Assembly: GCA_029782145.1 (NCBI GenBank)
Contig: JAKOVH010000002.1
Span: 1-64,000, forward strand
DNA length: 64,000 bases
Origin: Actinomycetes bacterium
GTDB taxonomy: Bacteria; Actinomycetota; Acidimicrobiia; Acidimicrobiales; Acidimicrobilacustridaceae
Reading direction: 5' to 3'
Shown in pieces: positions 14,919 to 34,936 of the stretch (positions are counted from its first letter, which is position 1; each line of letters opens with the position of its first letter). The position numbers and the translations under genes were made by a program. The notes under the pieces were generated by a model that was not told the DNA's origin, did no database searches, and worked only from the letters and a program-made list of their open reading frames with translations.

Positions 14919-14935
14919 GTCTCGTGGACCGCTGA

Positions 14936-19380: not shown

Positions 19381-19417
19381 CTTCCCGTTTCGTCGCTCAA
19401 CACAGAACAGGCACAGC

Positions 19418-19738
19418 GTGGACGACCTCGAGCACGACGTCTGGTTTTCGCTCATGACCGTCACTGGTCCGGCCGGCTGGGCGGAGCTGTTCACCCGTCC
19501 CGCATGGCACGCCCGGGCGGCGTGTCGTGGCGCCGGGCCCGGCCAGTGGTTCCCGGAGCGGGGCGAGGACGTGCGGCCCGCCAAGGCAGTGTGCGCCGGC
19601 TGCTCTGTGCGCTCGCAGTGCGCCCAGGACGCTCAGGAGGTTGGCCGTTACGCAATCGGGATATGGGGCGGGCTGTCAGACAGGGAACGCCGCAAACTGC
19701 GCCGCCGTCGGGCGCTCGAGGGTGAGGAGGCGGCGTGA
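19418..19738 (+). CDS. WhiB-family iron-sulfur transcription factor
   Basis: A 106-residue protein with the four WhiB cysteines: C36 (AACRG), C59 and C62 (VCAGC), and C68 (SQCAQ). The GIWGG turn is at 81-85, followed by a basic tail (RERRKLRRRR) that binds DNA. WhiB proteins carry a [4Fe-4S] cluster and act with the primary sigma factor; actinophages use them to take over host promoters. GTG at 19418 is taken as the start, with ATG 19454 possible. Its place after the capsid gene fits a control role within the satellite. Confidence 0.88.
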   Translation: MDDLEHDVWFSLMTVTGPAGWAELFTRPAWHARAACRGAGPGQWFPERGEDVRPAKAVCAGCSVRSQCAQDAQEVGRYAIGIWGGLSDRERRKLRRRRALEGEEAA

Positions 19739-19780
19739 CCTGAGCGCCTGGCGATCGACGCCTGCCGCCCGACCGCCCTT

Positions 19781-19903
19781 CTACATCCGTGCTGCCACCT
19801 GTGGCCGGACCGACGCCAGGTAGACGATCACAACGATCACGGCCAGGCCGAGCACGCCAGCGATCGCACCTAGCCTCCCTCTGCTGGTCCTCGAGGTGGG
19901 CAC
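19781..19903 (-). CDS. Small single-span membrane protein, 40 aa
   Basis: A minus-strand GTG at 19903 is preceded by GGGGG. The product has a basic start (PTSRTSRGR), one hydrophobic span of about 18 residues (GAIAGVLGLAVIVVIVYL) and a short tail. The composition is typical of an inner-membrane peptide. It overlaps the opposite-strand methyltransferase remnant, which is probably dead. Function unknown; a holin- or exclusion-like role is only a guess. Confidence 0.4.
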   Translation of the reverse strand: MPTSRTSRGRLGAIAGVLGLAVIVVIVYLASVRPQVAARM

Positions 19904-20255
19904 GTCGACCCCCGGGCGGGCACTCCACGCGGCGAGGCCGGTGCAGGCGTGGACGAAGGACGCGCGCCAGGCCGAGAAGGCCGAGCAACAGGCCAAGGCG
20001 TGGGACCTGTGGCTCGACTGCCTGAGCGAGCACGACGTGGCTGACGCCATTGACGTGCCGCGGACCACCGTGCAGTCGTGGCTTGACGAACAGCGCAAGT
20101 CTGCGGATTTCGTCAGGGCGCCGGAGTCGCGGCAGCACTTCGACGTGTGGAACTTCGCTCCCGCACGGGACGACAGCGCCGGATCGACGTCCTACTTCGG
20201 GGTCATGCCGCCCCATCTCCGCTCCGAACGACCTCGATACCGTCCGCGGCGCTGA
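19896..20255 (+). pseudogene. Internal fragment of an HTH/DNA-methyltransferase gene
   Basis: The frame contains LWLDCLSEHDVADAIDVPRT (a helix-turn-helix), then KSADFVRAPESRQHFDVWNF and SYFGVMPPHL. This series occurs in ParB-HTH-methyltransferase proteins of phages and conjugative elements just before the catalytic DPFxGxGTT block. Here the frame ends at 20255, before any SAM-binding motif, and the N-terminal ParB part is missing. It is therefore a remnant, missing both ends. Confidence 0.6.
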
Positions 20256-20271
20256 GCGTGGCGCCTCGGCA

Positions 20272-20559
20272 TCATTCCAAGGGGTCGAGCCCAGCCGACG
20301 CCACCTCTGCTACGACCCGCAACGCGGTCCGCAGCATGTGCGCTTCGGCCTCGTGCTGGCACTGCCCGTCGTCGTAGTCGCCGGTGCGTGTCCGCCAGGT
20401 GCTGCGGCCGTGCTCGTCGCCGCACACGATGCACGGGACGTAACGGTCGCCGTCGAGCATCGCCCGGATGGCGCGGCACACCCGGTCGAATGCGTCCGGG
20501 TCGACCTTTCGCATCTCATCGAGGAGCCGGGCGCCCTCGGTCGTGTCTAGGTTGGTCAT
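20272..20559 (-). CDS. Small CxxC protein, 95 aa
   Basis: The ATG at 20559 has AGGAG eight bases upstream. The product starts MTNLDTTEGARLL and is mostly helical. It has CIVCGDEHG near residue 45 with a later CQHEAEAH, which could together bind a metal. The gene runs opposite to the capsid-WhiB genes. No family is recognised. The good ribosome-binding site and balanced composition support it over the overlapping frames. Confidence 0.55.
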   Translation of the reverse strand: MTNLDTTEGARLLDEMRKVDPDAFDRVCRAIRAMLDGDRYVPCIVCGDEHGRSTWRTRTGDYDDGQCQHEAEAHMLRTALRVVAEVASAGLDPLE

Positions 20560-21204
20560 GTCGATCACGCTCCTGTCGTGTTCGGCCAGGCCCGGGGCTG
20601 TTGACGCAGCGCCCGGGCCACCTCGATTGTCGAGCGGGATCGTAGGCGCTGAGCATGCCGAGCGCCGGATCGCTGACCACGACCCGCAGGGCGACGTGCG
20701 GCAGACCGGGCCGTCCCGGGCGGCCCTGTTTGGGGTCAGGGCCGCCCGGTGAGCCGGCACGGCGGAGCGCCGACCGGCTAATCATGCCGCGCGTCATCAG
20801 CCGGCGGGAATAGCACTATTGGCTCAACGCGATGCGATCGGCACACTCAACCTCGTCCGCTGGGCGGTCGATACAGCAATGCCTGACTCCCACCCTCAGG
20901 CCTCTGTCCCGGACGCCCCACTGCGCTCGACGCGGTGGGGCGTCCGACGTTCCATGCCGGGCGCGGTGAGGCCCGCCGCCCACGCCACCCCCCTCTGGCG
21001 GGCCGGCGGGCCTCTCCGACGAGGCCCCGGCAGCGGAACCGGGGCCTCGCGGGATACGGGACCGGCGAGGGTCCCGCGACACCGCCCCGTGGCGGATGGG
21101 GCGGCACGCGTGAACCTAGGACGGCGCGCGCCGAAGTCGACAGGGCCGATGGTCCCTCGTCGCCACACGTCGGGTCGAGGTGGCTCGGCTGCTTAGCCGC
21201 CTAC
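20560..21204. other. 645-bp region without a gene, with strong hairpins
   Basis: No credible coding sequence is seen between the small CxxC gene and the right arm site. Two perfect hairpins stand out. GGACGCCCCA (20911-20920) pairs with TGGGGCGTCC (20936-20945), and CGAGGCCCCGG (21020-21030) pairs with CCGGGGCCTCG (21039-21049). They may be terminators or part of the element's replication or packaging origin. Confidence 0.5.
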
Positions 21205-21222
21205 TGGTCACAGATTGGTCAC
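21205..21222 (+). repeat. Right arm-type integrase site
   Basis: TGGTCACAGATTGGTCAC matches the left arm (12409-12426) at 17 of 18 positions in the same orientation. A further inverted copy, ACTCGTGACC, follows at 21225-21234. It lies about 125 bp inside the right core. Confidence 0.5.
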
Positions 21223-22986
21223 AGACTCGTGACCACCGGGCGAGACAGGACGACATCGACTTCGTGTATCACTGGTCGCGAATGCCCGCTGAGCAGGGGA
21301 TTCATAGACGCATCGCCACAGGCCGTCATGGGTGTCGTATGAGTTCAAGTCCCCCCTCCGACACGATCTAACGCACACCGGAAGCGCCTCGACTCGTACG
21401 AGGCGCTTCGTCGCGTCAAAGGTCAGTTCGAGGCCCAGTTCGTTGTACAGGCGGGCCTTCGCGTCGGGGTCAGCGCCGGCCAGGACGTCGCTGATCGGGC
21501 CAACTGCGTCGATGAGCGCTCGGATGTCGGCGTCATCGAGGACGCTGCTTGGCTGGGCGGCCGCGAGCTCTCGCTCGGCGGCGATCTTGGCGGCCCGCAG
21601 CTGCTGAATGCGAGGTCCAAGCGTGTCAGCGGGCGAGCCTTGCTCGATTGCCGCGACGAGGCGGTCGATCTTCTCGTTGGCATCCTCGAGAGCTCGGCGG
21701 GCAGCCTCGGCACGGGCGTCGTCGGTCTCGGTCGGCCCCTGTGCCTCGTTCAGTGCGGCGATGGTCGCGTCGAGGTTGGCCGGGTCGAAGACGGTAGCGA
21801 TCCACTCGTCGAGGGCGGGCACGATCTGGTCCTCGCGGAGGTAGATCGTGGCGGGGTGGTCGACCTTGTTGGCGAGGGCGTACTCGGCGGGCACCCGGCA
21901 CCGGTAGTGGGCCCGGTCATGGTTCCAGTTGCCTTGCATGCGAGCGCCGCAGGCCCCGCAGCGGAGCCGCCCGCGCAGTAGGTAGGTGTTCTTGCGGCGG
22001 TTGACCCGACGGGCCGCACGCTGTGCCCCGGCACCGGCGAGCTGTTGGGCTCGTGCGAAGACCTCGGGGTCGATGATCGGCTCGTGCGTGGTGTCCGTCG
22101 ACCAGATCCACTCATCGGACGAGTTCCAGCGGAGCTTTGTCTCGTGGCCGAGGGCGACGTCCTCGACGTCGATGAGGGTCTCGTCGCGCCGTTGCTTGTT
22201 CCATACTTCGCGGCCGGTGTAGCGAGGGTTGCGCAGGATGGCTCGCACGGCGCTCTTGGACCAGGCGATACCGGAGCGGTGCGAGTTGCGCTTCGGGTCG
22301 GCAGCGCTCGGGCACGGCACGCCGTCGCGGGTGAGACCCTCGGCGATGGCGTAGAGGCCGGAGTCGTGGAGGTACTCGGTGTAGATCCGCTCGACGATCG
22401 GAGCGGTGGAGGGGTCGGGCTCGAGGTAGTGGAGGCGCTGGCCGTTGGCCGCCTTGCCCGGGTTGGGGTGGAGGCCGCCGTCAGCGAGGCGGTAGCCGTA
22501 GGGCGGACGACCGCCGAGGAAGCGGCCCTCGGCGGCCTGGCTCGCCATCGCCGAACGGACCCGGATCTTGATGCGAGTGCGCTCGCCCTTCGACATGCCG
22601 CCGTAGAGCGCCATCACCATGTCGTGGGCGTCCGAGCCGGGGTCGACCGCACCACCGACCTCGGGCACCCACAACTCCACGCCGTAGTGGGTGAGCACCG
22701 GGAACGTGAGCCCGAACTGGTTGCCATAGAACGCTCGAGCCGGTTCGCCGATCACGATCGCGTCGAACCCACGGTCGGGACGCTTCAGGTCGCCGAGCAG
22801 CCGGGCCGCCTCGGGCCGGCGCTTCCACGGCAGCGATCGAGACTGGCCGATGTCGAAGTACTCGGTAACGACCTCACCGGTCGCCCCGATGAGCTGCGTC
22901 GCTCGTGAGAGCTGCCATGCCTTCGAGCTCTCCGGATCCTGCTGGTCCTCGGTCGAGACCCTGCCGTAGAACGCGAATCGCTTCAT
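21208..22986 (-). CDS. Large serine recombinase (integrase/resolvase family)
   Basis: A 592-residue site-specific recombinase. The catalytic serine is S11 in FYGRVSTEDQQ. The resolvase domain runs to about 150 (GGMSKGERTRIKIRVR helix). The Recombinase domain follows with GGRPPYGYR, and a zinc ribbon with CGACGARM and RCRVPAEY sits near 350-380. A coiled-coil segment follows (about 420-480). Such enzymes insert and excise actinobacterial mobile elements without accessory factors. The last 46 or so codons lie beyond att core B, inside the neighbouring element, so the present C-terminus is probably a hybrid made by insertion. Its start overlaps an 11-codon ORF coupled to the small gene upstream. 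Confidence 0.9.
   Translation of the reverse strand: MKRFAFYGRVSTEDQQDPESSKAWQLSRATQLIGATGEVVTEYFDIGQSRSLPWKRRPEAARLLGDLKRPDRGFDAIVIGEPARAFYGNQFGLTFPVLTHYGVELWVPEVGGAVDPGSDAHDMVMALYGGMSKGERTRIKIRVRSAMASQAAEGRFLGGRPPYGYRLADGGLHPNPGKAANGQRLHYLEPDPSTAPIVERIYTEYLHDSGLYAIAEGLTRDGVPCPSAADPKRNSHRSGIAWSKSAVRAILRNPRYTGREVWNKQRRDETLIDVEDVALGHETKLRWNSSDEWIWSTDTTHEPIIDPEVFARAQQLAGAGAQRAARRVNRRKNTYLLRGRLRCGACGARMQGNWNHDRAHYRCRVPAEYALANKVDHPATIYLREDQIVPALDEWIATVFDPANLDATIAALNEAQGPTETDDARAEAARRALEDANEKIDRLVAAIEQGSPADTLGPRIQQLRAAKIAAERELAAAQPSSVLDDADIRALIDAVGPISDVLAGADPDAKARLYNELGLELTFDATKRLVRVEALPVCVRSCRRGDLNSYDTHDGLWRCVYESPAQRAFATSDTRSRCRPVSPGGHESVTNL
21346..21364 (+). repeat. Attachment-site copy B (right end of the tyrosine-integrase element)
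   Basis: Exact 19-bp copy of the att A core. The preceding GAGTT extends it to GAGTTCAAGTCC, which looks like a tRNA T-loop. Read on the minus strand, it lies inside the 3' part of the serine recombinase gene and encodes CRRGDLNS, a peptide typical of tRNA 3' ends read in antisense. Confidence 0.7.
21381..21409. terminator. Hairpin beside att B
   Basis: GAAGCGCCTCG (21381-21391) and CGAGGCGCTTC (21399-21409) form a perfect 11-bp stem with a 7-nt loop. It mirrors the hairpin beside att A and lies in the last part of the recombinase frame, where it may mark the ancestral gene end. Confidence 0.45.
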
Positions 22987-23017
22987 CGCTGTCCGAGGCT
23001 ACGCAAGGGGTGCGACA

Positions 23018-23167
23018 TCACGCCGCCTCCCGCCGCTGCTGGCCGGCGAGCCGCTCATGTTCGCTGCGGAGGATCCGCAGCAGCACGACAGCGGCACCCG
23101 GGGCGAGGTTCGGCGTCCCTCCGGAGGGGATGATCTCGATCACGGGAGGCGAAGAGTTGGCCGGCAT
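23018..23167 (-). CDS. Small protein upstream of the serine recombinase, 49 aa
   Basis: The frame runs from ATG 23167 to TGA 23018. The product reads MPANSSPPVIEIIPSGG at the start, then LAPGAAVVLLRILRSEHERL. The stop overlaps a tiny ORF (MSHPLRSLGQR) whose own stop overlaps the recombinase ATG, so the three frames are coupled. The sequence looks protein-like (a proline-rich start, then an amphipathic helix). Its role is unknown; it could be a recombination directionality factor, but nothing proves this. Confidence 0.45.
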   Translation of the reverse strand: MPANSSPPVIEIIPSGGTPNLAPGAAVVLLRILRSEHERLAGQQRREAA

Positions 23168-23599
23168 GGGCAGACCATCTCGAATCGAGGTCCCGCGATC
23201 GTTCCCGGTTCATGTCCCGATCGCGGAATTTCTCGCGGAATCTCGTCGCACGGGGGCGCCTGGTCGTCGAGACCCCTCTGCTGCTGAATCGCATCCGCCT
23301 ACCTCCCACGGACACATCACTCCAGTCAGAACCCAGCTCTCGCTCATTCCCGGAGTAGTTCCCGAACCCGGATCCTCTCTCCACTCACCTCGGTCCCAGA
23401 AAAGCCAACAGAGCCAGCGAGACACGATTGCAACCCCTTCGGGTTGCCGGCCCGACCCGCGCCCAGCCGGTCGTCGATAGGAGCAGCGTCGAGGCCCCGA
23501 CGCTGTCGCAGCCCCTCCGCATACTCCTCATGCGGAGTAGTCGGCTGATCGGCGCTGGTGGCCGGCTCGGGCAAGAAGCGCAGGAAGGAGGTGAGCGAC
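23168..23599. other. 432-bp intergenic region with inverted repeats, part of a possible oriT
   Basis: No convincing gene is seen. The region has clustered TCCCG and CGCGGAAT motifs (23190-23250) and one arm of a 22-bp perfect inverted repeat at 23347-23368. Its partner is at 23929-23950. Together with the repeats at 23813-23985 it flanks the small basic-protein gene, upstream of the relaxase. Confidence 0.45.
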
Positions 23600-23950
23600 A
23601 TGGCACCCAGGAACACTCGTCAGACCTCGCCGAAGGCTGCGTCGTCGGCCGGCAAGGTCTTGGCCAACCCGAAGTCCAGCAAGGCCGAGAAGGCCGCTGC
23701 TGCCAGCGCGTTGAGTCAGGCGCCCAAGAAGGGCAAGTAGTCACGTGGGCGTCGAGGCCGAGGACGGCCTCGACGCCCACATCCCTTCCATTCCGCAGAA
23801 TCGCGAGCGCTCAGTCCCGGGATCGGTCCCGGAGTTGGTCCCGGGATTGGTCCCAGTCCCTGGTCAGAGCGTCGCGACGCTGACGCTCGCCGCCGTTGAG
23901 CCGCTCCGGTCCCGGTTGGGGAGATGTCGGTTCGGGAACTACTCCGGGAA
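23347..23950. repeat. 22-bp perfect inverted repeat pair around a small gene
   Basis: The arm at 23347-23368 (starting TTCCCGGAGTAG, ending TTCCCGAACC) is the exact reverse complement of 23929-23950. The copies are about 560 bp apart and enclose the 46-residue basic-protein gene. Possible roles are a relaxase- or replication-protein binding site at each end, or an invertible segment. Confidence 0.6.
23600..23740 (+). CDS. Small basic conserved protein, 46 aa
   Basis: The ATG at 23600 follows AGGAAGGAGGTG, the best ribosome-binding site in the window. The product is rich in Ala, Lys and Ser (APRNTRQTSPKAAS, then KVLANPKSSKAEKAAAASAL) and has one or two short helices. Similar small proteins occur in many bacteria and mobile elements without a known function. 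High translation and basic charge suggest nucleic-acid binding, which is inference. Confidence 0.65.
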   Translation: MAPRNTRQTSPKAASSAGKVLANPKSSKAEKAAAASALSQAPKKGK

Positions 23951-23985
23951 CTATCCCGGGACCGATCCCGGGAACCCGGTTTGTC
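23813..23985. repeat. Iteron-like GGTCCCGG/CCGGGACC repeats, candidate oriT/origin
   Basis: Short units such as GGTCCCGGAGTTGGTCCCGG and ATTGGTCCC (23813-23868), and GGGAACTAT, CCCGGGACCGATCCCGGGAA (23934-23978) repeat in direct and inverted order. They lie directly upstream of the MobF relaxase gene, the usual position of an oriT. Nothing here identifies the nick site. Confidence 0.5.
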
Positions 23986-24031
23986 ATGGTCCCCCTTTCC
24001 GGAGCAGCGGGGGAGGGCGGCGGTGGCGTGG

Positions 24032-26563
24032 ATGCGGATGATGGGCGTCGAGTCGGTGGCGTATCACCGCTCCACGGTGATGGACCGTTCCGATGACCAT
24101 CCGGACGCAGCTGTCGCCTACTACACATCCAGGGGCGAGTCGCCTCTGCAGTGGGGCGGGGGAGGCGCTGACCGCCTCGGCCTGGCGGGGACGGTCACCC
24201 CTGAGGCGTATGAGGCCGTGTTCGGCCCGGGCGGCGCCCGGGACCCGCTGACCGGTCGGCGTTTGGTGTCGACGAAGCGGCCCGGTCTCGAGCTGGTGGT
24301 GTCGGCGCACAAGTCGGTGGCCGAGCTGGGGGTGGTCGGCCGAGTCGAGGACATGCACCGGATCCTCGACGCGGAGACCGCCGGCACGCTCGAGTATCTG
24401 GAGGAGTTGACCCGTGACCGGGGCGGCCGCCGGGGGCGCGCTGCGACACGGTCCCCGACCTCGGGGATGACCTACGCGGTGACGAGGCATGCGACGTCGC
24501 GGGCGGGGGACCCGAACCCGCACGACCACGTCCTGATCGCGAATGTGGTGGAGATGCTCGACGACCGGGGCGGCTTCAAGGGCGCCGATACGGCGTTGTG
24601 GCGTGAGCATCTTCACGCCGCCACCGCGTACGGGCGGCTGCGCTCGGCTCGGGTGGCGGTTGAGCTCGGGTACGGGATCGTCCCGGATCGGGGGAAGTCG
24701 GGGCGGCTTGGGCACTGGGCCATCGCCGGGATCCCTGACGAGGCGATGGCGATCCACTCGAAACGGGCGGCGCAGATTGATGAGGCGCTGGGCTCTGGTG
24801 CCGCCACCGCGTATCGGGAACGGGCCATCGCGGCCCGCCGGACCCGCACCGCCAAGCGCCACGAACCGGTCGAGGACCTCGTCGAGCGTTGGAACCGGGA
24901 GCTTGCCGCCCATGGTCTCGATCGTGATGTCATCGCCGCCACGGTGGGTCTCGCTCACCGCACCCGCATCACTGGTGACCTCGACGACACGGCGCTCGAC
25001 CGTCTGGCCGGGAGGCTCCTCGAGGCTGATGGCCGGCTGGCGGCGGACAAGGTGTTCTCCCGCCGTGATGTGATCGTTGCCGCGGCACCTCACCTGTTTG
25101 GCCTCGACCCTACGGTGCTGGCCCGTCTGGTCGACAAGGTGCTCACCCACCCCTCCGCGGTCGAGCTCGAACCGAAGCCGTCCGCGTCGGAGCGGTTGTA
25201 CGCGCCTCGTTGTGTGATCGACACCGAACGAGCGATCGCCGTGCGGGCCCGGGACCGTCACCAGCTCGGCACCGCCCCAGCCCTGCTCACCGCGCTCGTG
25301 GACACCACCATCCGCCGCACCGAAGCGGAGCTGGCGGTGAAGCTCACCACCTCCCAGCGCCGCGCTGTCACCGGCGTGTGCACGTCGGGGCGCAGCCTGG
25401 ATGCGATCATCGGGGTCGCCGGCGCCGGCAAGACCACCGCACTGCGCGCCGTGCGCGACGCGCACGTGTCCGAACGCCGCCAGGTGATCGCCGCCGCGAC
25501 CTCCGGTCAAGCTGCCCGCACGGTGGGCCGCGACGCCGGCATCGAGTCCTACACCGTCGCCTCGCTCCTCGCTCGCCTCGAACGCGGCGGCCTCACAGTC
25601 GACCGCAACAGCGTCGTCGTGCTCGACGAAGCGGGCATGACCGACGACGCCCACCTCCTCGCCCTCATCAACCACACCAGCGCGGCAGGGGCGAAGCTGA
25701 TCCTCGTCGGCGACGACCGGCAACTCTCCGCCGTCGGCCCCGGTGGCGGCCTCCGGGCCCTCGTCGAGCGATTCGGTGGCAGCGTCTGGGAACTCACCGA
25801 GAACATCCGCCAACCCGACATCACCGAACGCCAAGCCCTCGCCGAGCTCCGCGCCGGCGACATCGACAGAGCGGTCGACTGGTTCGCCCGCAACCAGCGC
25901 ATCGTCACCGCCGCGGACCGTCACGAGCTCTACGGCGCCGTCATCGACGGCTGGCTCGCCGACACCGACCGCGGCCTCGACACCGTCATGCTCGCCTGGC
26001 GACGCAACACCGTCGACGGACTCAACCAACTCGCCCGCACCGCAGCTGACGAACGCGGGTGGCTCACCGGCCCCGAGATCACCGCCCCCGGCGGCACCGC
26101 CTACCGGGCCGGTGACCGTGTCGTCACCCTCGCCCCGATCAGCCGCAACGTCGTCACCTCCGAAACCGGAACCGTCCGCCGTGTCGACCCCGACACCGGC
26201 GGCCTGCACATCGACTTCGACAACGGCCGCAGCTACCAGCTGTCACGCCACCACATCGGATCCGACAAGCTCGCCCACGGCTACGCCATCACCGTCCACC
26301 GCGCCCAAGGCGCCACCATCGACACCGCCCACACCATCGAAGACGGCGGCGGCCGAGAACTCGCCTACGTCGCCCTCAGCCGAGCCCGACAACACGCGAC
26401 TGTCTACGTCGAAGCCGACAACCTCGACCAAGCCATCGACGACCTCACCGCGAACTGGGCCATCGAACGACGCCAACAATGGGTCACCGACGCTCAGACG
26501 CCTGGACGGGACCACCCGGCACAAACGCGAGATGCCATCGAACCACCCGGGCTCGGTCTTTGA
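24032..26563 (+). CDS. MobF-type conjugative relaxase with TraA/RecD2-like helicase
   Basis: An 843-residue protein that would nick oriT and unwind DNA for transfer. The TrwC relaxase domain spans about 1-330: the tyrosine pair Y30-Y31 (AYYTSRGE), VVSAHKSV, and the histidine triad RHATS...NPHDHVLIAN (H153, H164, H166). The helicase half has Walker A GVAGAGKTTAL (about 461-471), LDEAGMTDD, GDDRQLSAVGPGG, and the C-terminal HGYAITVHRAQGATID and YVALSRAR motifs. ATG 24032 is chosen because upstream residues do not resemble relaxases; 24038 and 24041 are also possible. No coupling protein or type IV secretion genes are nearby, so the element is probably mobilised by a helper. Confidence 0.88.
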   Translation: MRMMGVESVAYHRSTVMDRSDDHPDAAVAYYTSRGESPLQWGGGGADRLGLAGTVTPEAYEAVFGPGGARDPLTGRRLVSTKRPGLELVVSAHKSVAELGVVGRVEDMHRILDAETAGTLEYLEELTRDRGGRRGRAATRSPTSGMTYAVTRHATSRAGDPNPHDHVLIANVVEMLDDRGGFKGADTALWREHLHAATAYGRLRSARVAVELGYGIVPDRGKSGRLGHWAIAGIPDEAMAIHSKRAAQIDEALGSGAATAYRERAIAARRTRTAKRHEPVEDLVERWNRELAAHGLDRDVIAATVGLAHRTRITGDLDDTALDRLAGRLLEADGRLAADKVFSRRDVIVAAAPHLFGLDPTVLARLVDKVLTHPSAVELEPKPSASERLYAPRCVIDTERAIAVRARDRHQLGTAPALLTALVDTTIRRTEAELAVKLTTSQRRAVTGVCTSGRSLDAIIGVAGAGKTTALRAVRDAHVSERRQVIAAATSGQAARTVGRDAGIESYTVASLLARLERGGLTVDRNSVVVLDEAGMTDDAHLLALINHTSAAGAKLILVGDDRQLSAVGPGGGLRALVERFGGSVWELTENIRQPDITERQALAELRAGDIDRAVDWFARNQRIVTAADRHELYGAVIDGWLADTDRGLDTVMLAWRRNTVDGLNQLARTAADERGWLTGPEITAPGGTAYRAGDRVVTLAPISRNVVTSETGTVRRVDPDTGGLHIDFDNGRSYQLSRHHIGSDKLAHGYAITVHRAQGATIDTAHTIEDGGGRELAYVALSRARQHATVYVEADNLDQAIDDLTANWAIERRQQWVTDAQTPGRDHPAQTRDAIEPPGLGL

Positions 26564-26627
26564 GCGGCGCCGATCGCAGGCTCAGACGGCGCCGACCGGC
26601 GAGAGCGGCGTTGCCTACCGTTGCCGG

Positions 26628-27200
26628 ATGGACGCAACTCCGAGGCAGCAGCGGCGACATGATGAGCGGTGGCAGCACGAAGTGCTCGATGGCCTCGCCC
26701 GACTCCACGCAGTGATGCACGACATCTCAGACGGGGTCCAGAAGCTCGTCGCCCTGCTCCAAGACCTCGAGCGGCCGGCACCCACGCCAGCAACGGAAGC
26801 GGCCCCCACACGGCTGCTCTTCTCGGTCGATGATCTCGCTGACCTCCTCGGTGTCACCGCCTCCACGGTCCGCGGACTTCGGGCGAGCGGCCAAGGTCCG
26901 ACGGTCACCAAGATCGGCCGTCGTGTCTTCTTTCGCCGCGAGGATGTCGAAGGGTGGCTTGAGGAACAGCGGATGCCCGCCGTGGGACTCGCCGGAGCAT
27001 GGAGGGACAACTGGCTGCCAGGGCGGATCGGCTCCTCAGTCCCGCTCACCTCGGAGCGGCCCGACTACTGCAGCGGATCGCACAGCGAGCCGCTCTCGGC
27101 ATCGCGCTACAGCGGTCGAGGGGTCTGTCGGGTGTGCCGAGACGACGTGCTGGTCAACCGCGACGGTCGGCTGCGAAAGCACCACCGAAGCGGCTGGTGA
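26628..27200 (+). CDS. HTH_17 DNA-binding protein with C-terminal CxxC motif
   Basis: A 190-residue protein. An N-terminal helical region (HDERWQHEVLDGLARLHAV, then VQKLVALLQDLE) could be a coiled coil. A MerR/excisionase-like winged helix follows: FSVDDLADLLGVTASTVRGL with KIGRRVFFRREDVEGWL. The end has GVCRVCRDDVLVNRDGRL, a half zinc knuckle. It lies 64 nt downstream of the relaxase and probably serves excision or transfer control. Confidence 0.75.
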   Translation: MDATPRQQRRHDERWQHEVLDGLARLHAVMHDISDGVQKLVALLQDLERPAPTPATEAAPTRLLFSVDDLADLLGVTASTVRGLRASGQGPTVTKIGRRVFFRREDVEGWLEEQRMPAVGLAGAWRDNWLPGRIGSSVPLTSERPDYCSGSHSEPLSASRYSGRGVCRVCRDDVLVNRDGRLRKHHRSGW

Positions 27201-27594
27201 CCATGTCGCGTGTACGTGATGGCGGTCGGGTCGCTCCGTTCCAGCGGGACGGGGGAGTCCGCCCTCTTCTCAGCCGGTTTCCGCCGTGTGTGACCGCTGG
27301 CCACACACCTTCCGGGTCTTCGTGAAACCCACGCCAGCCGACCCGTCGACCGGTATGGTCTCTACGCAGTCGGGAGGCTCCTGAGCCGCCCGATCAGCGG
27401 CTCACCAGCCGTAGCCCTCGGGTGGAGGCGCGCAGTCCACCCCACGTGTACCGGTTCCAGCCGACGATCCGTGGGGTACCCAAGTGACGCACGTTCGACG
27501 AACACCCGACTATGCTCACGAACAATTGTTCGATCCGATTGCCGTCGAGCGTGGTCCGCTCGACGCCGAGTTCCATGGATGTAGTTTGACGCAC
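27201..27594 (+). promoter_or_regulatory. Promoter and operator region of the restriction-modification cargo
   Basis: No gene is seen in this 394-bp gap, unless the methyltransferase starts upstream at GTG 27484. A TGAGCCG/CGGCTCA hairpin lies near 27380-27403. A -10-like TATGCT at 27511-27516 is followed by the perfect palindrome CGAACAATTGTTCG at 27519-27532, an AT-rich island in GC-rich DNA. A palindrome at the transcription start suggests repressor control, as in C-protein or methyltransferase autoregulation. Confidence 0.45.
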
Positions 27595-28767
27595 GTGACT
27601 TCCTCCGATGGCCTCACGGTCGCAGGTCTCTTCGCTGGAATCGGGGGGATCGAGCTGGGGCTGAGCCGCCATGGCGGTCGGGCACAGCTTCTCTGCGAGG
27701 TGTGGGAGCCGGCCCACCGAGTGCTGGCCGAGCGATTCCCGGACGCCGCTCTCGTCGAGGACGTACGCGACCTCCGGTCGCTGCCGAAGGTGGACCTCGT
27801 CTCGGCCGGGTTCCCCTGCACCGACCTCTCGCAAGCAGGGATGATGAGCGGGATCAAGGGCGAGGCATCCGGACTCGTCGGTGAGGTGTTCCGCCTCCTC
27901 AAGCGACCACGAGCGCCGATGCTGCTGCTCGAGAACGTCCGCAACATGCTCGTTCTCGATGGCGGGGCCGCCATGCGGTACCTCACCAACGAGCTCGAAT
28001 CGCTCGGCTACCGATGGGCCTACCGGCTCGTCGACTCCCGCTTCACGGGCGTGCCGCAGCGACGCCAGCGCGTCATCTTCCTGGCGTCACGCACAGTGGA
28101 TCCGCGACGTGTCCTCTTCGCCGACGATGCAGGCGAGCCCCAGGCCGGTCACTTCGCCGACGACGTCTTCGGCTTCTACTGGACCGAAGGACTACGAGGG
28201 CTCGGCTGGGCCCAGGACGCAATCCCGACGCTCAAGGGTGGGTCGACGATCGGGATTCCGTCCCAGCCCGCCATCTGGAACCGGGATGCCCCGCTCGGTC
28301 AGCGGATCGTGCTGCCGGACGTCGACGAGGCTGACGAGCTGCAGGGATTCCCACGTGGGTGGACCACGCCAGCGGAGGCTGTCGCGGCGAGGAAGGGCAC
28401 CCGGTGGAAGCTCACCGGCAATGCGGTGACCGTCGGTGTCTCGGCATGGTTGGGTTCTCGTCTCCAGAACCCCGGGGAGCCGATCCTCGACGGAGCGCCG
28501 GTCAAGACCGGCGACCGTTGGCCCACAGCCGCCTACGGCGCCAAGGGCAAGGTGTGGGCGGTCAACGTCTCCATGTGGCCTACGCACGAGCCGTACCGCC
28601 ACCTGAGCGATGTCGTCGACCTCTCGGCGGCCCAGCAATTGTCGGCTCGGGCAGCGGCAGGATTCCTCGAGCGGGCACGGCGCGGCAACCTGCGCTTCGT
28701 CGACGGGTTCCTCGATGACGTCGAGGAGCACACCGCCTATATGGCCGAGGAGCTCTCCGTCGCCTGA
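27595..28767 (+). CDS. DNA (cytosine-5) methyltransferase
   Basis: A 390-residue type II modification enzyme making 5-methylcytosine. Motif I is GLFAGIGGIELGL; motif IV with the catalytic cysteine is GFPCTDLSQAG; motif VI is ENVRNM; motif VIII is QRRQR; motif X is LTGNAVTVGVSAW. The last 80 residues follow motif X and are unassigned. GTG 27595 is preferred because the likely promoter lies downstream of the alternative GTG 27484, which would add 37 residues without conservation. Vsr and three nuclease-like genes follow on the same strand, forming a restriction-modification cluster. Confidence 0.9.
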   Translation: MTSSDGLTVAGLFAGIGGIELGLSRHGGRAQLLCEVWEPAHRVLAERFPDAALVEDVRDLRSLPKVDLVSAGFPCTDLSQAGMMSGIKGEASGLVGEVFRLLKRPRAPMLLLENVRNMLVLDGGAAMRYLTNELESLGYRWAYRLVDSRFTGVPQRRQRVIFLASRTVDPRRVLFADDAGEPQAGHFADDVFGFYWTEGLRGLGWAQDAIPTLKGGSTIGIPSQPAIWNRDAPLGQRIVLPDVDEADELQGFPRGWTTPAEAVAARKGTRWKLTGNAVTVGVSAWLGSRLQNPGEPILDGAPVKTGDRWPTAAYGAKGKVWAVNVSMWPTHEPYRHLSDVVDLSAAQQLSARAAAGFLERARRGNLRFVDGFLDDVEEHTAYMAEELSVA

Positions 28768-29215
28768 CCCCCGGAAGCCCGCGCGCCCGCCGGCCTCGTC
28801 GGAGGTCGTGAGGCGACGGATGGAACGGCAGGCGCGTCGGGACACCAAGGCCGAGTTGGTAGTCCGCAGGGCAGTATGGCGGCGCGGCCTCCGCTACCGG
28901 GTCGACCTCGCCCCGCTGTCTGGCTCGAGACGGCGGGCCGATCTCGTCTTCACCCGGGCAAGGGTCGCAGTGTTCGTCGACGGCTGCTTCTGGCACGGCT
29001 GCCCTATCCACGCCACGGCCCCGAAGTCGAATGCCGCATGGTGGGAGGAGAAGCTCGCCGCCAACGTCCGGAGAGACCGCGATACCGAGGCGCGCCTGGA
29101 AGCAGCAGGCTGGCACGTTGTGCGGGTATGGGAGCACGAGGACCCGGAGGAGGCCGCCGAGCGGATCGTTGCAGCGGTCGACGCGCATCGAGGCCGAGAG
29201 TCCCCAGCCCCCTGA
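28715..29215 (+). CDS. vsr: Very short patch repair endonuclease (Vsr)
   Basis: Vsr nicks beside T:G mismatches that arise when 5-methylcytosine deaminates. The conserved core is complete: SSEVVRRRMERQARRDTKAE at the N-terminus, FTRARVAVFVDGCFWHGCP with the metal and zinc ligands, and a WWEEKLAANVRRDRD and GWHVVRVWEHE end. ATG 28715 gives 166 residues and overlaps the methyltransferase end by 53 nt. A start at GTG 28808 would remove part of the conserved N-terminus. Its place next to a cytosine-5 methyltransferase is the usual one. Confidence 0.9.
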   Translation: MTSRSTPPIWPRSSPSPDPRKPARPPASSEVVRRRMERQARRDTKAELVVRRAVWRRGLRYRVDLAPLSGSRRRADLVFTRARVAVFVDGCFWHGCPIHATAPKSNAAWWEEKLAANVRRDRDTEARLEAAGWHVVRVWEHEDPEEAAERIVAAVDAHRGRESPAP

Positions 29216-29239
29216 GACCGGGCCGCTAGCTTTCGGCGG

Positions 29240-30061
29240 GTGGAGGGCCCTCAGATTCTGGCGCAGACGTTGTCCGTGCCTGCGGCAACCAGAACTCAGG
29301 ACCCGTCGATGTGGCAGTACCACTCCCGTGGAGCCCGTCACTCGCTGGCCTCCTGTTGGGGCGTCCTCTACGACCTGCTCGTCCACTCGGCGTTGCTCCG
29401 GGACCACGTGACAACCGGGAAGGTCGTGTTCGGTCTCGACCACCGCATGCACGACTACCAGGCCAACCGGTCGAAGAACCTCGACCTGGTCATCGCCCGA
29501 CCGCATGAAGGCGGATGGACCAAGAAGCGTCGGCCGAGACACTTCTCCCAGCTCCCCGGCGAGTTCGACATGCACCTCACGGAGAGCCAGCTCGCCGAGC
29601 TCACCGCCCTGCCTGACCCAATCGAGGGTGAGGTCGGCGCTGTTCATCTCGCGCTCGAGGCGAAAGCCTGCATGACGGCCTTCACCAAGTCCTACCCGAG
29701 GTTCTACGACGAGCTGAACTCATCGCACGCGGTGATCCACGGGTCGTCCAACCGTGCTCTCGCGGTTGGCCTCGCCATCGTTAACGTTGCCCCCGACTTC
29801 CTCTCACCGGTCGGGAAGCTGAACAAGCACCATCAGCCCCAGGACGCGCTCGGTGCCATGGCCAAGGTCGAACAGCTCCCGCGCCGATCAGGTGACGAGG
29901 GCGTCGGATATGACGGTCTCGGGATCATCCTGCTCGACCTGCGGAACGACGGCAGCCCGGTGACGATCCCGACCGATCCTCCGGTGCCGATGAACTACCA
30001 GTACGACCGGATGATCCTGCGGATCGCAAACGAGTACGACGTGCGCTTCCGCGGCGCCTGA
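29240..30061 (+). CDS. PD-(D/E)XK-type restriction-like protein, 273 aa
   Basis: The segment KNLDLVIARP followed by VHLALEAKACMTAF gives a D...ExK pattern typical of PD-(D/E)XK nucleases. LYDLLVHSALLRDHV precedes it, and PRFYDELNSSHAVIHG follows. I know this arrangement from uncharacterised proteins near methyltransferases. It could be the cognate endonuclease of the cytosine methyltransferase. GTG 29240 is the long start; ATG 29309, just before WQYHSRGARHS, may be the real one. Confidence 0.6.
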   Translation: MEGPQILAQTLSVPAATRTQDPSMWQYHSRGARHSLASCWGVLYDLLVHSALLRDHVTTGKVVFGLDHRMHDYQANRSKNLDLVIARPHEGGWTKKRRPRHFSQLPGEFDMHLTESQLAELTALPDPIEGEVGAVHLALEAKACMTAFTKSYPRFYDELNSSHAVIHGSSNRALAVGLAIVNVAPDFLSPVGKLNKHHQPQDALGAMAKVEQLPRRSGDEGVGYDGLGIILLDLRNDGSPVTIPTDPPVPMNYQYDRMILRIANEYDVRFRGA

Positions 30062-30067
30062 GGCCTG

Positions 30068-30589
30068 ATGGTCGAGCGAGCGGACTTCGTCCGCCCTGAC
30101 TATGCGACCTCGGGGGAGTGGGGTGAGGTGGGTTCGCTCGCGGACCGGCTGGTTGCGCACCTCAATGCGCCTCACATCGCCGCGCAGATTGCGGACGCGA
30201 ACCAGCCTGGCCGATCGAGCGCAGCGGTCCAGACGGTCTTCCTGCGTGAGGCAGTGGCGCTGGGATTCACGGACGAGCGCAAGGGGCTGTTCAGCTCCTA
30301 CGACTCTGCGCTTCGTCCCGACTACTTCAAGCGGGTCGGCAACAGCGGCGTCATCCTCGAGGTCGAGCGAGGCAAGACCACGATCAACAACATGGACTTA
30401 CTCGATCTGTGGAAGTGCCACATCTGCGAGCATGCCGACTACCTGTTCCTCCTGGCACCTTCAGAGCTCCGCCAGAACCCGACCATGAGCCCGAGGCGCG
30501 AGTTCGTCGCAGTTCGCAGACGTCTCGCCACCTTCTTCATGCCTGGCAACTACACGAACGTTCGTGGTCTGGTGCTCGTTGGCTACTGA
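30068..30589 (+). CDS. BglII-like/PD-(D/E)XK nuclease candidate, 173 aa
   Basis: The core reads ALRPDYFKRVGNSGVILEVE followed by RGKTTINN, i.e. D...ExE with a nearby lysine, then LWKCHICEHADYLFLLAP. The pattern and size resemble BglII-type restriction proteins and their inactive relatives. It starts 6 nt after the previous gene and clearly belongs to the same operon. Whether it is an active nuclease or a subunit cannot be told from sequence alone. Confidence 0.5.
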   Translation: MVERADFVRPDYATSGEWGEVGSLADRLVAHLNAPHIAAQIADANQPGRSSAAVQTVFLREAVALGFTDERKGLFSSYDSALRPDYFKRVGNSGVILEVERGKTTINNMDLLDLWKCHICEHADYLFLLAPSELRQNPTMSPRREFVAVRRRLATFFMPGNYTNVRGLVLVGY

Positions 30590-30634
30590 GTCGATGCCCC
30601 TCCGGCGCTGGAAGAGCGCGTAGCGTCGGACGCC

Positions 30635-31456
30635 GTGCCGGAAGAGACCTGGAATGACTTGGCCCCCGATCCGGCGATGCTCGACGCTCTGGGCGCAGCC
30701 GACGCCGGTGGAACGCGGATCGCCGCATTGGATGGCCCCGCTCCTGCGAAGGGTCAGTGGAGTAGTCGGTTGGCTGATGCGGCTGCGGCCATGGTTGCTT
30801 CGGAGGTCCGCCGGCATGCCGCCTTCCGCGGATTCCAGGTCCGGCCCGTGGACGGCGGACCAGCCGAGCCGCTCACCTTCTCGGCTGCCGGCCAGGAGAA
30901 GAAGGTCGATGTGGTCGTATCTTCACTCGTGGCAGGCCTTCAGGTCGGATTCTCGCTGAAGGGCATGAACTTCCGTGATCGGACATCCCTCAACTTCGAT
31001 CACAACCTGACTGGTCGTACCTACGAGCTCCAGGACGAGCTGTCAGTCATCCACAAGTACCAGCCGGCCGCCTTCCTGGTTGCGCTCTACTTCATGCCGG
31101 TGGGCGCTGTGAACGACAAGAAGACCGACCAGGCCCCTTCGTCGTTCGCCCGAGTTGTGCAGCACCTGCGTGCGAGAACCGGAAGGCTGGATCCGATGCT
31201 GCCGAGCCAGATGGATCGAGCCGACTTCGCTGCAGTTGGCCTCTACTCGCCAGGGGACACCGAGCAGATCGGCGCTTTCGAGTACCGCGATGACCTGCCC
31301 AGGGGCGTTGTCAGGTACTTCGACGTTCTGGACGATCCGCCTCGGCGAGGGCGGCCGAGACTGTCAACCACATTGAGCTTGGCTGATCTCGTGGAACGGA
31401 TCGCATCTCGCGCACGGCCCAGCGAAGCGTTGATCAGCTGGGCTGAGCCCGAGTAG
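30635..31456 (+). CDS. Restriction-endonuclease-like protein, 273 aa
   Basis: An N-terminal helical part is followed by GQEKKVDVVVSSLVAGLQVG and FSLKGMNF, which resembles a PD-(D/E)XK core with D and a strand ending in K; the middle acidic residue is replaced by serine, so the active site may be altered. HNLTGRTYELQDELSVIHK and a beta-rich YQPAAFLVALYFMP follow. The family is not recognised with certainty. It follows two other nuclease candidates in the same direction, with a 45-nt gap. GTG start. Confidence 0.45.
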   Translation: MPEETWNDLAPDPAMLDALGAADAGGTRIAALDGPAPAKGQWSSRLADAAAAMVASEVRRHAAFRGFQVRPVDGGPAEPLTFSAAGQEKKVDVVVSSLVAGLQVGFSLKGMNFRDRTSLNFDHNLTGRTYELQDELSVIHKYQPAAFLVALYFMPVGAVNDKKTDQAPSSFARVVQHLRARTGRLDPMLPSQMDRADFAAVGLYSPGDTEQIGAFEYRDDLPRGVVRYFDVLDDPPRRGRPRLSTTLSLADLVERIASRARPSEALISWAEPE

Positions 31457-31651: not shown

Positions 31652-33283
31652 ATGTTTCACGTCAGCGAGGCGGCGCTCGACTTCGCCCTGACTCACGTCA
31701 TCGCAAAGGGCGACACGGACATCCTTCCGCCTGCGCATGAGTACCGGGCAGTTCTGGCCCAGTGGGACTCGGTACGGTCCGATCTGGCCGGCCGCGATCT
31801 AGACACCTGGCATGTGCGACCAGCCCGCAGGTGTCTCTCACCGAAGCGCGGTCTGGCTTTCCGCGTCGCGACACAACTCGATCCGCTGGACACACTGCTG
31901 ATCACCGCTGTCGTCTACGAGATCGGCCAGGAGCTTGAAGCCCGGCGGGTGCCTGTGGACGACGCCATCGTTCACTCGTACCGGTTTGGACCTACGTCCG
32001 CGGGTCAGCTCTATCTACCGGCGTGGTCGTTCGAGTCGTTTCGTGAGCGGTCCCTATCGGAGGCTCGAGCTCGTGGCGGAGTTGTCCTCATGACGGACAT
32101 CTCAGACTTCTTCCAGCGGATCTACTTCCATCCACTTGAGAATGCCCTGTCGGTTGCCACCGCCAGCCGTGACCACGCCCGTGTCATTGGCAAGTTCATC
32201 TCCGGCTGGAATCAGAGCGTCTCGTACGGGATCCCGGTTGGACCGTCGATTTTCCGCCTTCTGGCCGAGGTGACCATCGACGACGTGGACCGAGCTCTCC
32301 TAAGCGAGGGCTACGCCTACTGTCGCTTCTCCGATGACTACCGGGTGTTCGTGGCGGACGAGCGGAGCGCACGGGAGGCCTGTGCATTCCTCGCGAATCT
32401 CCTCCTTCGTCACCACGGGCTCACCCTCCAGGAGAGCAAGACGGAGATCGTCGCGGCAGAGGACTTCATCAGACGCTTCGAACGAACGGAGGAGGATGCC
32501 GAGCGTGCCGCGCTTCGTGAGAGCTTCGACGACCTTCGACGACAGCTCCGCAAGCGGGAGGAGCAGGAGCTCATCGACATGGCCGATGTCGGTGAAGAGA
32601 CCGACTACTGGGATGCCTGGGTCGGTCTGGATGAGTACGCAGACATCGACTACGAGGATCTTGACGATGACCAGAAAGCGATCGTCGACGGATTGAACCT
32701 GTGGCAGGTCCTTCGGAGACAGCTGGAGGACACCGGCGCCTTGGACGTGCCGCTCACACGGTTTGTCCTACGTCGAATCGCGCAGCTGGGCCTGCAGGAC
32801 GATGAGGCCCTGCTGTTGTCCGATATCGCGCGGCTCTACCCGGTGTTCCCGCAGCTGGTTCAGGCACTGGCAGTACAGCACCCCGGGGATGCCCGTGCTC
32901 GCACGGAGCTGGGTGGCCGACTGCTTGCACTTTTCGACGACCCTGTGGTGGGGCACCTCGAATACCACCGGGCGTGGATCCTCAGCGTCTTCAACGACGC
33001 CACTTGGGGGCACGCTGACGAGATATCTCACGCCTACTCGAAGTTCTCCGACCAGCTCACGCGCCCTGAGGCCATCACTGCCCTCGCTGCCGCGGGCGTC
33101 GCGCATTGGTTCCGTTCGCGTAAGCAGGACGTGACGAACCTGCCACCGTGGGAACGCCGAGCGTTCCTCGCGGGTGCGCGGTGCCTCCCGAGGGACGAAG
33201 CCAGGCACTGGTTCCGATCCATTCTTCCGCAGCTCGACGAGCTCGAGCGCGTCGTGGTGTCGTGGGCGCAGACAAATGTCTAG
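31652..33283 (+). CDS. Defence-type reverse transcriptase (Abi/UG-like) with helical C-terminal domain
   Basis: A 543-residue protein with reverse-transcriptase motifs: MTDISDFFQRIY (catalytic D149), SYGIPVGPSIFRLLAE (motif 4, about 191-206) and YCRFSDDYRVF (motif 5, D228-D229, where SDD replaces the common ADD). The C-terminal 250 residues are all-helical, with repeats resembling HEAT/alpha-rep domains of AbiA/AbiK-type and DRT enzymes. No group II intron maturase or retron VTG motif is present. ATG 31652 has a strong ribosome-binding site. It lies 24 bp before an OLD nuclease gene, so the two probably work together against phages; the exact group cannot be set without a tree. Confidence 0.8.
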   Translation: MFHVSEAALDFALTHVIAKGDTDILPPAHEYRAVLAQWDSVRSDLAGRDLDTWHVRPARRCLSPKRGLAFRVATQLDPLDTLLITAVVYEIGQELEARRVPVDDAIVHSYRFGPTSAGQLYLPAWSFESFRERSLSEARARGGVVLMTDISDFFQRIYFHPLENALSVATASRDHARVIGKFISGWNQSVSYGIPVGPSIFRLLAEVTIDDVDRALLSEGYAYCRFSDDYRVFVADERSAREACAFLANLLLRHHGLTLQESKTEIVAAEDFIRRFERTEEDAERAALRESFDDLRRQLRKREEQELIDMADVGEETDYWDAWVGLDEYADIDYEDLDDDQKAIVDGLNLWQVLRRQLEDTGALDVPLTRFVLRRIAQLGLQDDEALLLSDIARLYPVFPQLVQALAVQHPGDARARTELGGRLLALFDDPVVGHLEYHRAWILSVFNDATWGHADEISHAYSKFSDQLTRPEAITALAAAGVAHWFRSRKQDVTNLPPWERRAFLAGARCLPRDEARHWFRSILPQLDELERVVVSWAQTNV

Positions 33284-33307
33284 GAACCGGATTCAACAGG
33301 GGAACTC

Positions 33308-34936
33308 ATGGCGCGACTGACCTACCTGGAGGTCAGCGGCTACCGCTCGATCGATGGCGACCTGTGCGTCAGAGTTCCGCCTGGCAAGCCGCTCGTCATA
33401 GTTGGCGAGAATAACGCCGGAAAGTCGAACATCATTCGGGCGATCGACCTTTTGCTCGGAGATCGCTGGCCTGGCTCATGGGCTCCGGAGGACCATGAGT
33501 TCTATGGCCGGGACCCGTCAGGAGCGATCCGGATCTGTGGTGATGTCGACGGTGTCGCGTGGAACCGCACAGGTGTCGAACGGATCGTTCTCACCAATAG
33601 CGCCGGCCGGAGTGAGATCAACATCGAGCTCGAGGACGGCAGCCAACGGTGGCCGAACAACGAGACACGGGCGCAGCTGCCCTGCGTCTTGATCAACGCC
33701 GATCGACGTCTCAGCTACCAGCTGAGCTATGCGTCCCAGTGGACGATGCTGTCGAAGCTGATGCATCGCTTCCACAAGGCTCTCACTGCAGACCCGGATA
33801 GGCGGGATGCGCTGAAGGCGCACTTTGATGCCCTCCATGAGATCTTCGACGGTGTTCCCGAGTTCTCGGTCTTCGTCGAGCGGCTTCAGGACGAGGTCGG
33901 CCAACTCGGCGGAAACATGCCGTATGGACTCGAGATCGACTTCTCGGCGTACGACCCGTCGAACTTCTTCCGTGCGCTGCGAGTCACACCCAAGCTCGAT
34001 GGTGAGCATCGGTCCTACGACGAGCTGGGAACGGGGCAGGAGCAGATCCTCGCGCTTGGCTTCGCCTATGCCTACGCGGCAGCCTTCGGTGCCACGGGTG
34101 AGGGCCTCGTACTCGTTATCGAAGAGCCCGAAGCCCATCTGCACCCGTTGGCTCAGGACTGGCTTGCGTCCCAACTCCACCGGTTCACAGCCGAGGGGGT
34201 GCAGGTGATTGTGACAACGCACAGCCCTGCTTTCATCGATCTCCGGAACCTCGATGCTCTCGTGCTCGTCCGCAAGGTCGCCGGAGCGACGTGCGTCTCT
34301 CAGCTCACCGCCGCTGAACTCGCTGACTATTGCCGCAACCATGGGGCACCGAAGGCAATGGCCGACTCGATCCTCGAGCACTACGACATCAACTCGACCC
34401 CGGCCTTGCGAGCGGGGTTCTTCGCCCGGGCCGTGATCCTGGTGGAGGGCGCGACAGAGGAATTCGCTCTGCCCGTGCTGCTGCGGCATCTCGGCCTGGA
34501 CCTGGTCGGAACGGGAGTCGCTTGTATCCCAGTTGGCGGGAAGGGCAACCTCGCTAAATGGTGGCGGCTGTTCACAGCCTTCGAGATCCCGACTTACGTC
34601 ATCTTCGATAACGACACGTCCGACGACGGCTCGGGAGCGAAACGATGTGATGTGCTCTGCGCTCTCGGGATCGGTACCGAAGAGCAGTCCGCGTATCTGG
34701 AGACCACAGAGCTCGTCGTCCGGCCCGGCTTCAGCGTGATGGGAGTCGATTTCGAGGCAACGCTGAGAGGTCTCCTTCCGGAGTACGCAGCCCTCGAAGT
34801 GGAGTGCGCCGATGTCAACGGTCAGATGGGTAAGCCATTCGTCGCGAGGTGGGTTGCGGAACGCCTTACGGACGTCGATAGCGAACGACTGGCAGAGCTC
34901 GCCGGGCGGCTACGCGAGATTGCGGCGGCGTCGTAG
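33308..34936 (+). CDS. OLD-family ATP-dependent nuclease (AAA ATPase plus TOPRIM)
   Basis: A 542-residue protein. The ABC-type ATPase has Walker A GENNAGKS (33-40), the signature-like ELGTGQEQILAL, Walker B LVLVIEEPEAHLHP (about 270) and the switch VTTHSPAFID (about 303). The TOPRIM nuclease follows with VILVEGATEEFALPVLL (about 376) and IFDNDTSDDG (about 433). OLD proteins degrade DNA and serve as effectors in P2 OLD, Gabija (GajA) and some retrons. No GajB-like UvrD gene is adjacent. The partner here is the reverse transcriptase 24 bp upstream, which suggests an RT-OLD defence pair. Confidence 0.85.
   Translation: MARLTYLEVSGYRSIDGDLCVRVPPGKPLVIVGENNAGKSNIIRAIDLLLGDRWPGSWAPEDHEFYGRDPSGAIRICGDVDGVAWNRTGVERIVLTNSAGRSEINIELEDGSQRWPNNETRAQLPCVLINADRRLSYQLSYASQWTMLSKLMHRFHKALTADPDRRDALKAHFDALHEIFDGVPEFSVFVERLQDEVGQLGGNMPYGLEIDFSAYDPSNFFRALRVTPKLDGEHRSYDELGTGQEQILALGFAYAYAAAFGATGEGLVLVIEEPEAHLHPLAQDWLASQLHRFTAEGVQVIVTTHSPAFIDLRNLDALVLVRKVAGATCVSQLTAAELADYCRNHGAPKAMADSILEHYDINSTPALRAGFFARAVILVEGATEEFALPVLLRHLGLDLVGTGVACIPVGGKGNLAKWWRLFTAFEIPTYVIFDNDTSDDGSGAKRCDVLCALGIGTEEQSAYLETTELVVRPGFSVMGVDFEATLRGLLPEYAALEVECADVNGQMGKPFVARWVAERLTDVDSERLAELAGRLREIAAAS

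Follow-up and report, generated by a model that had tools for sequence, protein, structure and literature searches.

The window, a 64,000-nucleotide stretch of DNA from a bacterium of the order Acidimicrobiales (contig JAKOVH010000002.1), carries five intact genes in a row on the forward strand: a C5-cytosine DNA methyltransferase (M), a Vsr-type mismatch endonuclease (V) and three nuclease-like genes (A, B and C, in that order). Genes were called with a simple caller built on GC content by codon position. M (27484..28767) matched PF00145 (E = 3e-40), TIGR00675 (1.3e-38, above the cut-off) and PADLOC MTase_II (3.2e-124). An earlier, sequence-only reading of the window had correctly named M a cytosine methyltransferase but had it start at 27595, which is an internal GTG; since relatives (L025, L036 and L174; surveyed loci and contigs carry L numbers, genomes G numbers) keep a longer, conserved N-terminal extension, we place the start at ~27484. 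V (28808..29215) matched TIGR00632 (1.5e-34; 118.8 bits against a cut-off of 97.85) and PF03852 (9.7e-18), its open frame begins at 28610 and overlaps the end of M, and in L025 the two genes are fused. A (29240..30061), B (30068..30589) and C (30635..31456) follow tightly packed in the same orientation, with spacers of 6 bp between A and B and 45 bp between B and C. The ratio of nonsynonymous to synonymous change (dN/dS) against relatives was 0.09–0.31 for A, B, C, M and V, with synonymous changes near saturation. The gene content given in the sequence-only reading, a methyltransferase and Vsr followed by three nuclease-like genes bearing the motifs EAKAC, EVERGKT and SLKGMNF, was therefore borne out.

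None of A, B and C matched PHROGs, or Pfam, NCBIfam or PADLOC at a meaningful level, and their sequences and profiles returned nothing useful from the PDB (for B, no PDB chain matched by sequence). In A, the motif EAKAC occupies residues 140–144 and supplies two of three putative catalytic positions, D82 (29483), E140 (29657) and K142 (29663), all of which were invariant in 34/34 aligned relatives and in 8/8 members of a more diverse set. Judged from its residues, A carries the D...E-x-K motif of PD-(D/E)XK nucleases, and this invariance together with its adjacency to the M family marks it as a restriction-endonuclease-like gene.

The putative active site of C comprises D92 (30908), S107-x-K109 (30953–30961) and E131/E135 (31025, 31037), the altered motif SLKGMNF being residues 107–113. 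These five residues were invariant in 11/11 relatives, and S107 and K109 in 5/5 of a first set. A structure model built from 11 aligned sequences (predicted local distance difference test score, pLDDT, 88.3; predicted template modelling score 0.87) places D92 just before strand 93–97, S107 and K109 on strand 101–110, and E131 and E135 on helix 125–142, giving an S-x-K motif with a glutamate on the next helix. Its structural neighbours (Z 9.2–6.7) include NucC (9.2), BbvCI (9.0), PspGI, BstEII, BsoBI, the CCGG-type enzymes AgeI (7.4), Bse634I (7.3), SgrAI (7.2) and Cfr10I (7.0), and EcoRI; PD-(D/E)XK nucleases make up most of the top rows. A Foldseek search with the model gave no significant match (best E 0.19), and comparison with a viral structure library gave an uncharacterised cyanophage protein as its best hit (E 1.0e-3), which is not informative. 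From this model C is predicted to fold as a PD-(D/E)XK restriction nuclease. Because the SLK is invariant among relatives and the structural neighbours are PD-(D/E)XK enzymes, it appears to be a conserved variant, not decay; PMC4081073 mentions catalytic residues recruited from other positions.

For B, the putative triad is D85 (30320), E98 (30359) and E100 (30365), with EVERGKT at residues 98–104. E98, E100 and K103 were invariant in 4/4 relatives and in 3/3 of the first set, and D85 likewise in 4/4. The model, from 4 sequences, reached a pLDDT of 79.7 and retrieved OkrAI (1.0e-4), BglII (3.4e-4) and BamHI (1.1e-3) with Foldseek. VIA placed BglII first (Z 13.5), followed by BstYI (12.6), OkrAI (11.3) and BamHI (11.1); 11 rows of this group stood at Z 13.5–10.2 and the next, unrelated row at 6.7, families missing from the VIA lists not being counted as excluded. 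B is predicted to have the BamHI/BglII/BstYI fold, and its residues, judged from sequence order, fall into the catalytic D...E-x-E/Q pattern. The nuclease-like patterns are thus not chance resemblances, as the key residues of all three motifs are invariant among relatives, and the outcome that would have refuted the sequence-only reading, two of three products lacking a nuclease fold, did not occur: both proteins modelled, B and C, yielded restriction-nuclease folds. Profile comparison found B unrelated to A or C, and the A–C score was weak (probability 16%).

We then surveyed the neighbourhood of M, as the sequence-only reading had proposed. A profile scan of 84,980 genomes, with search patterns that included GFYWTEG from the presumed recognition motif, gave 566 confirmed relatives, of which the best 80 were kept and examined for 7 kb either side of M where available. 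Beside A, B and C, we scored a further effector type, D, which is defined below. The 80 loci held A (33), A and B (3), A and C (1), A and D (1), C (10), D (12) or none of these (20), where contig-end loci (e.g. L045, L053 and L051) may be mislabelled 'none' and L055/L192 was also counted there. In total A was present in 38, C in 11, D in 13 and B in 3, and among types A, C and D only 2/80 loci held two. The partners lie close: within 300 bp of M or V in 38/38 loci for A, 9/11 for C and 11/13 for D. A and C are therefore alternative partners of one M family, each usually the sole nuclease beside it.

This distribution makes it unlikely that A and C are subunits of a single enzyme, one of the options in the sequence-only reading. 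Tight packing in one orientation would favour a hetero-oligomeric enzyme built of A, B and C, yet each of the three occurs without the others: A lacks both B and C in 33/80 loci (34 counting the A and D locus), C lacks A in 10/80, and B stands alone in L026 and L033. The profiles, which relate B to neither of the others and A to C only weakly, also speak against it, and we regard such an enzyme as highly improbable. The option of two restriction systems finds no support in its plain sense, since only one methyltransferase is present.

An M tree of 98 rows (L051 and L118 omitted as too short; the set contains the near-identical pairs L037/L038, L040/L080, L044/L045 and L008/L009) was used to trace the partners. 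Partner labels changed 16 times for A, 10 times for C and 4 times for D (bootstrap ranges 14–16, 9–10 and 4–4), and the starred branches force at least 11, 9 and 3 changes, respectively. Closely related M proteins have different partners, as in L065 (A) and L064 (C) at 86.4% identity and L092 (A) and L082 (D) at 82.2%. In 7/7 discordant-partner pairs compared, DNA similarity was confined essentially to the M gene.

Were each exchange of partner accompanied by a new target, one would expect divergence in the recognition region of M. The presumed target-recognition core, taken from the M-family alignment (GFYWTEG..GLGWA..A.P.LKGGS..GI.S.PA; 28171..28272, forward strand), was ~100% conserved in A-, C- and D-partnered and in partnerless loci, a conservation that is partly built in because GFYWTEG was itself a search pattern. 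A comparison at matched overall M identity is less affected by this. In the well-filled bins the recognition region was about equally similar for pairs with different and with shared partners: 59.8 vs 59.5% (50–55% bin), 62.9 vs 62.8% (55–60%) and 64.9 vs 66.0% (60–65%). Above 75% identity, where pairs are few, it was more similar for different partners. Partner identity is not mirrored in the specificity region of M.

The window has both components of a type II restriction-modification system: a sequence-specific methyltransferase in M (PF00145, TIGR00675) and adjacent endonucleases, indicated by the predicted folds of B and C and, for A, by D/E/K invariance and adjacency to M. Our best reading is a single methyl mark that serves as the licence for two unrelated endonucleases, perhaps three. 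Read from sequence, the locus is probably a type II system whose single C5 mark protects against A and C at the least, two unrelated endonucleases that would cut the same unmethylated site. The two appear interchangeable as endonucleases for one site, and this site is most likely the one marked by M, because an endonuclease is kept only where M protects its site. The sequence-only reading had raised methylation licensing several nucleases as one option; this fits A and C best, each being the sole nuclease beside the M family elsewhere while the specificity region fails to track the partner, and for B it is uncertain.

In this proposed mechanism M would methylate one site and the mark would shield the chromosome, A and C, both presumed active in the window at once, would each cut that site when unmethylated, and V would repair T:G mismatches that arise from deamination of 5-methylcytosine, limiting mutation at the marked site. 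B, a third endonuclease of predicted BamHI/BglII fold, may share the licence, with much less certainty. Such a stack could provide a backup where a phage escapes or inhibits one of the enzymes, and could strengthen the addiction of the host to the element carrying M.

Several points weigh against a licence shared by A and C. The case for their common specificity is drawn from a single line of evidence, partner exchange, and the conservation of the recognition motif is to the extent noted a product of the search. In the 70–75% bin the recognition region was 67.9% similar for different partners vs 73.5% for shared ones (11 and 19 pairs). For C, the structural Z-scores are middling, none being above 9.2. 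Distant homologues of A are partnered with an SPPY-type methyltransferase and a XhoI-family nuclease, and a distant C homologue with an N6-type methyltransferase, so that the A and C families can change target.

Stacking of A and C was also found outside the window. The window has the order M-V-A-B-C, L049 has M-V-A-C (C is broken, on a contig holding N), and G543 has C-M-V-A. Because the C of G543 is a different subtype with an added helix-turn-helix (HTH) region and lies on the opposite side of M, stacking appears to have arisen more than once. L054 combines A with a D of the Shedu type around M-V. Within the window's order, 12 of 298 genomes had M; by context, A accompanied it in 10 of these, C in 3 and both in 2.

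These data also bear on whether the window holds an ordinary M-V-A system, perhaps with B, next to an unrelated C that has another target, has its methyltransferase elsewhere or is inactive, its proximity being that of a defence island. Defence genes are indeed stacked at this locus, with a Drt8-type reverse transcriptase and an OLD-like ATPase downstream, and the closest relatives of M (L036, L037/L038) have A without C. However, C itself partners this M family directly in 11/80 loci and again in L023 and L024, two more loci have it together with A and M, and in the window it is intact and under purifying selection. We consider an unrelated C unlikely, and a C licensed by M the better account. 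An apparent N-terminal remnant of C is fused in frame with Vsr beside M in L055 (8320–9063; the same as L192), as if a deletion had removed C. No relatives of C were detected among the viral contigs searched, where A had one relative.

The place of B in the restriction system is uncertain: it could be the third endonuclease under the licence or act independently. B was present in 3/80 M-family loci, all with A. Its neighbour is A or M in the window, in L047 and in two near-identical metagenome-assembled genomes (L025/L038 and L032/L037); it lies directly 3' of A in the window, L025 and L032 and flanks M in L047. Among the 298 genomes B occurred in 7 and M in 12, with both in 4, a co-occurrence above expectation (hypergeometric 5e-5; 7e-4 without the window's genome; 0.0098 after dropping the window's genome and one of two sister genomes). 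This adjacency and co-occurrence argue against B being a mobile, stand-alone BamHI-fold nuclease that settled nearby, for example as a separate defence effector. Conversely, B is solitary in three genomes: in G274 B is intact but lacks a close M, in G444 it is split and lacks M, and in G543 a distance of 2.5 Mb separates it from the C-M-V-A locus. A 30% relative of B in G443 adjoins a NaeI-family system, and in a phage contig (L144, 3266–4474) the B nuclease domain forms the C-terminus of an ankyrin-repeat protein. Since B occurs without M in G274 and G444 and a relative sits by a NaeI system, B is not bound to the M family, which counts against its sharing the licence, and we give a stand-alone B a little less than an even chance. 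B was not found in the plasmid and phage collections searched, and one relative was present among viral contigs.

Effector type D consists of a shared new N-terminal domain (TSTKKY...SKxGNxSVRxTQS) borne on three different modules beside the M family: SduA_C (7 loci), an AAA_5 ATPase (4) and an ABC-type ATPase (2). The D-type loci are L059, L060, L063, L074, L075, L078, L054, L061, L082, L085, L096, L062 and L067; in L062, which is of the ABC type, an HNH gene adjoins. With D included, the M family may write a licence common to at least five unrelated effectors (A, C, a D-Shedu nuclease, a D-McrB-like AAA protein and a D-ABC-type ATPase) that are swapped and can be stacked, the window stacking three non-homologous endonucleases, A, B and C, under one mark; we hold this broader proposal to be evenly balanced.

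A CTCGAG or TCGA-like site was considered as the target of M. CTCGAG was the most avoided 6-base palindrome in pooled effector loci (observed/expected 0.78, z -6.1), but against control genomes the signal was lost in the window's class (0.89 vs 0.90) and reached only z of -2.0 to -3.1 elsewhere among 37–45 palindromes, and the avoidance was rejected as evidence. Two context leads would point towards such a site, the XhoI-family nuclease beside distant A homologues and a layout in L124 like that of BsuMI/LlaJI.

Other gene rows touched on these families. An A-family gene stands in a row with an SPPY-type methyltransferase and a XhoI-family nuclease in L021 (6178–8672) and L022 (5666–8128), again one methyltransferase with two nucleases; among 296 genomes surveyed for PF04555, of which 20 were positive, the only A neighbours were the two already known. 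A GHKL-ATPase-like gene of 665–681 aa (PF13589 E 0.0015, below the cut-off) recurs beside A or M (L188, 10047–12053; L036, L186 and L191), for which paraMORC genes near C5 methyltransferases (PMC8011034) offer a comparison. M-V pairs of Nocardia and Rhodococcus had no A, C or D nearby (L090, L093, L099, L100, L104–L107, L109, L111–L113 and L115) and are apparently solitary methyltransferases; they resemble a Caulobacter case (PMC12907096) in which a solitary C5 methyltransferase is accompanied by Vsr. Helicase-like and 476-aa proteins beside M in L123 and L129 were considered as CglI/NgoAVII-like, a type covered in PMC5737866, and this was set aside as no PDB or Pfam match supported it.

Within the window, M is preceded by a TrwC-like relaxase frame (23924–26563, read by eye) and an HTH gene (26610–27200, PF12728 match), and two recombinase-like frames, also read by eye, lie further upstream on the reverse strand (12434–13663 and 21208–22986). 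From 12434 to 27200 these frames, with further HTH genes read by eye, look like an integrated conjugative element. Downstream of C, at 31652–34936, the Drt8-type reverse transcriptase (PADLOC 1.7e-137) is directly followed by an OLD/GajA-like ATPase with TOPRIM (PF20469 6.9e-21); the two form another defence pair next to the restriction genes.

The usual description of a restriction system pairs a single methyltransferase with a single endonuclease. One-to-one pairing raises the puzzle of how a new pairing could be made without killing the cell. A constant mark with changing and sometimes coexisting cutters would be a safe route, in which a cutter of the same specificity joins a cell that is already marked, and a shared mark makes the question of how pairings originate directly testable. 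It would also provide a backup against phages that inhibit a single enzyme: if two cutters act under one mark, inhibiting one would be insufficient for escape, and dependence on the element carrying M would increase. The locus further presents two endonuclease families, A and C, and a BamHI-type one, B, that had no match in the family libraries used. A search of an open-licence library, which takes in neither REBASE nor subscription journals, by titles and openings of abstracts and by passages of PMC12907096, PMC4081073, PMC5737866, PMC8011034, PMC12707154 and PMC10333322, gave no account of a methyltransferase paired with two unrelated endonucleases that can replace each other.

Compared with known type II systems that have a C5 methyltransferase and Vsr, the locus is conventional in the adjacency of M, V and a PD-(D/E)XK endonuclease, V being usual beside C5 methyltransferases, and differs in holding two to three sequence-unrelated endonucleases instead of one and in the exchangeable partners of its M family. 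LlaJI- and BsuMI-type systems combine C5 methyltransferases with McrBC-like restriction proteins and have several restriction genes per system. Some M relatives, such as L124, resemble them in lying with another C5-methyltransferase-like frame, an McrC protein and an AAA_5 protein; the window is laid out differently, and BsuMI and LlaJI need their restriction proteins together, unlike A and C. Shedu (SduA) has a counterpart in the SduA_C domain of 7/13 D loci of the M family, although in D this domain is fused to the new N-terminal domain with a methyltransferase adjoining, and the window lacks D. B is like BamHI, BglII, BstYI and OkrAI in its predicted fold over 140–154 of its 173 residues, with a putative D-x12-E-x-E triad that in sequence order is placed as in BamHI; it differs in having no PDB sequence match and in its partner, which would be a C5 methyltransferase or none, whereas those enzymes are paired with N4-cytosine methyltransferases. 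Finally, Cfr10I, Bse634I, SgrAI, AgeI and PspGI are structural neighbours of C at Z 7–8, a similarity too low to assign C to the CCGG-type group, to which C has no sequence match and which NucC and BbvCI equal or exceed in score; in its model C shares with Cfr10I and NgoMIV the serine in place of the usual acidic residue and the glutamate drawn from the next helix.

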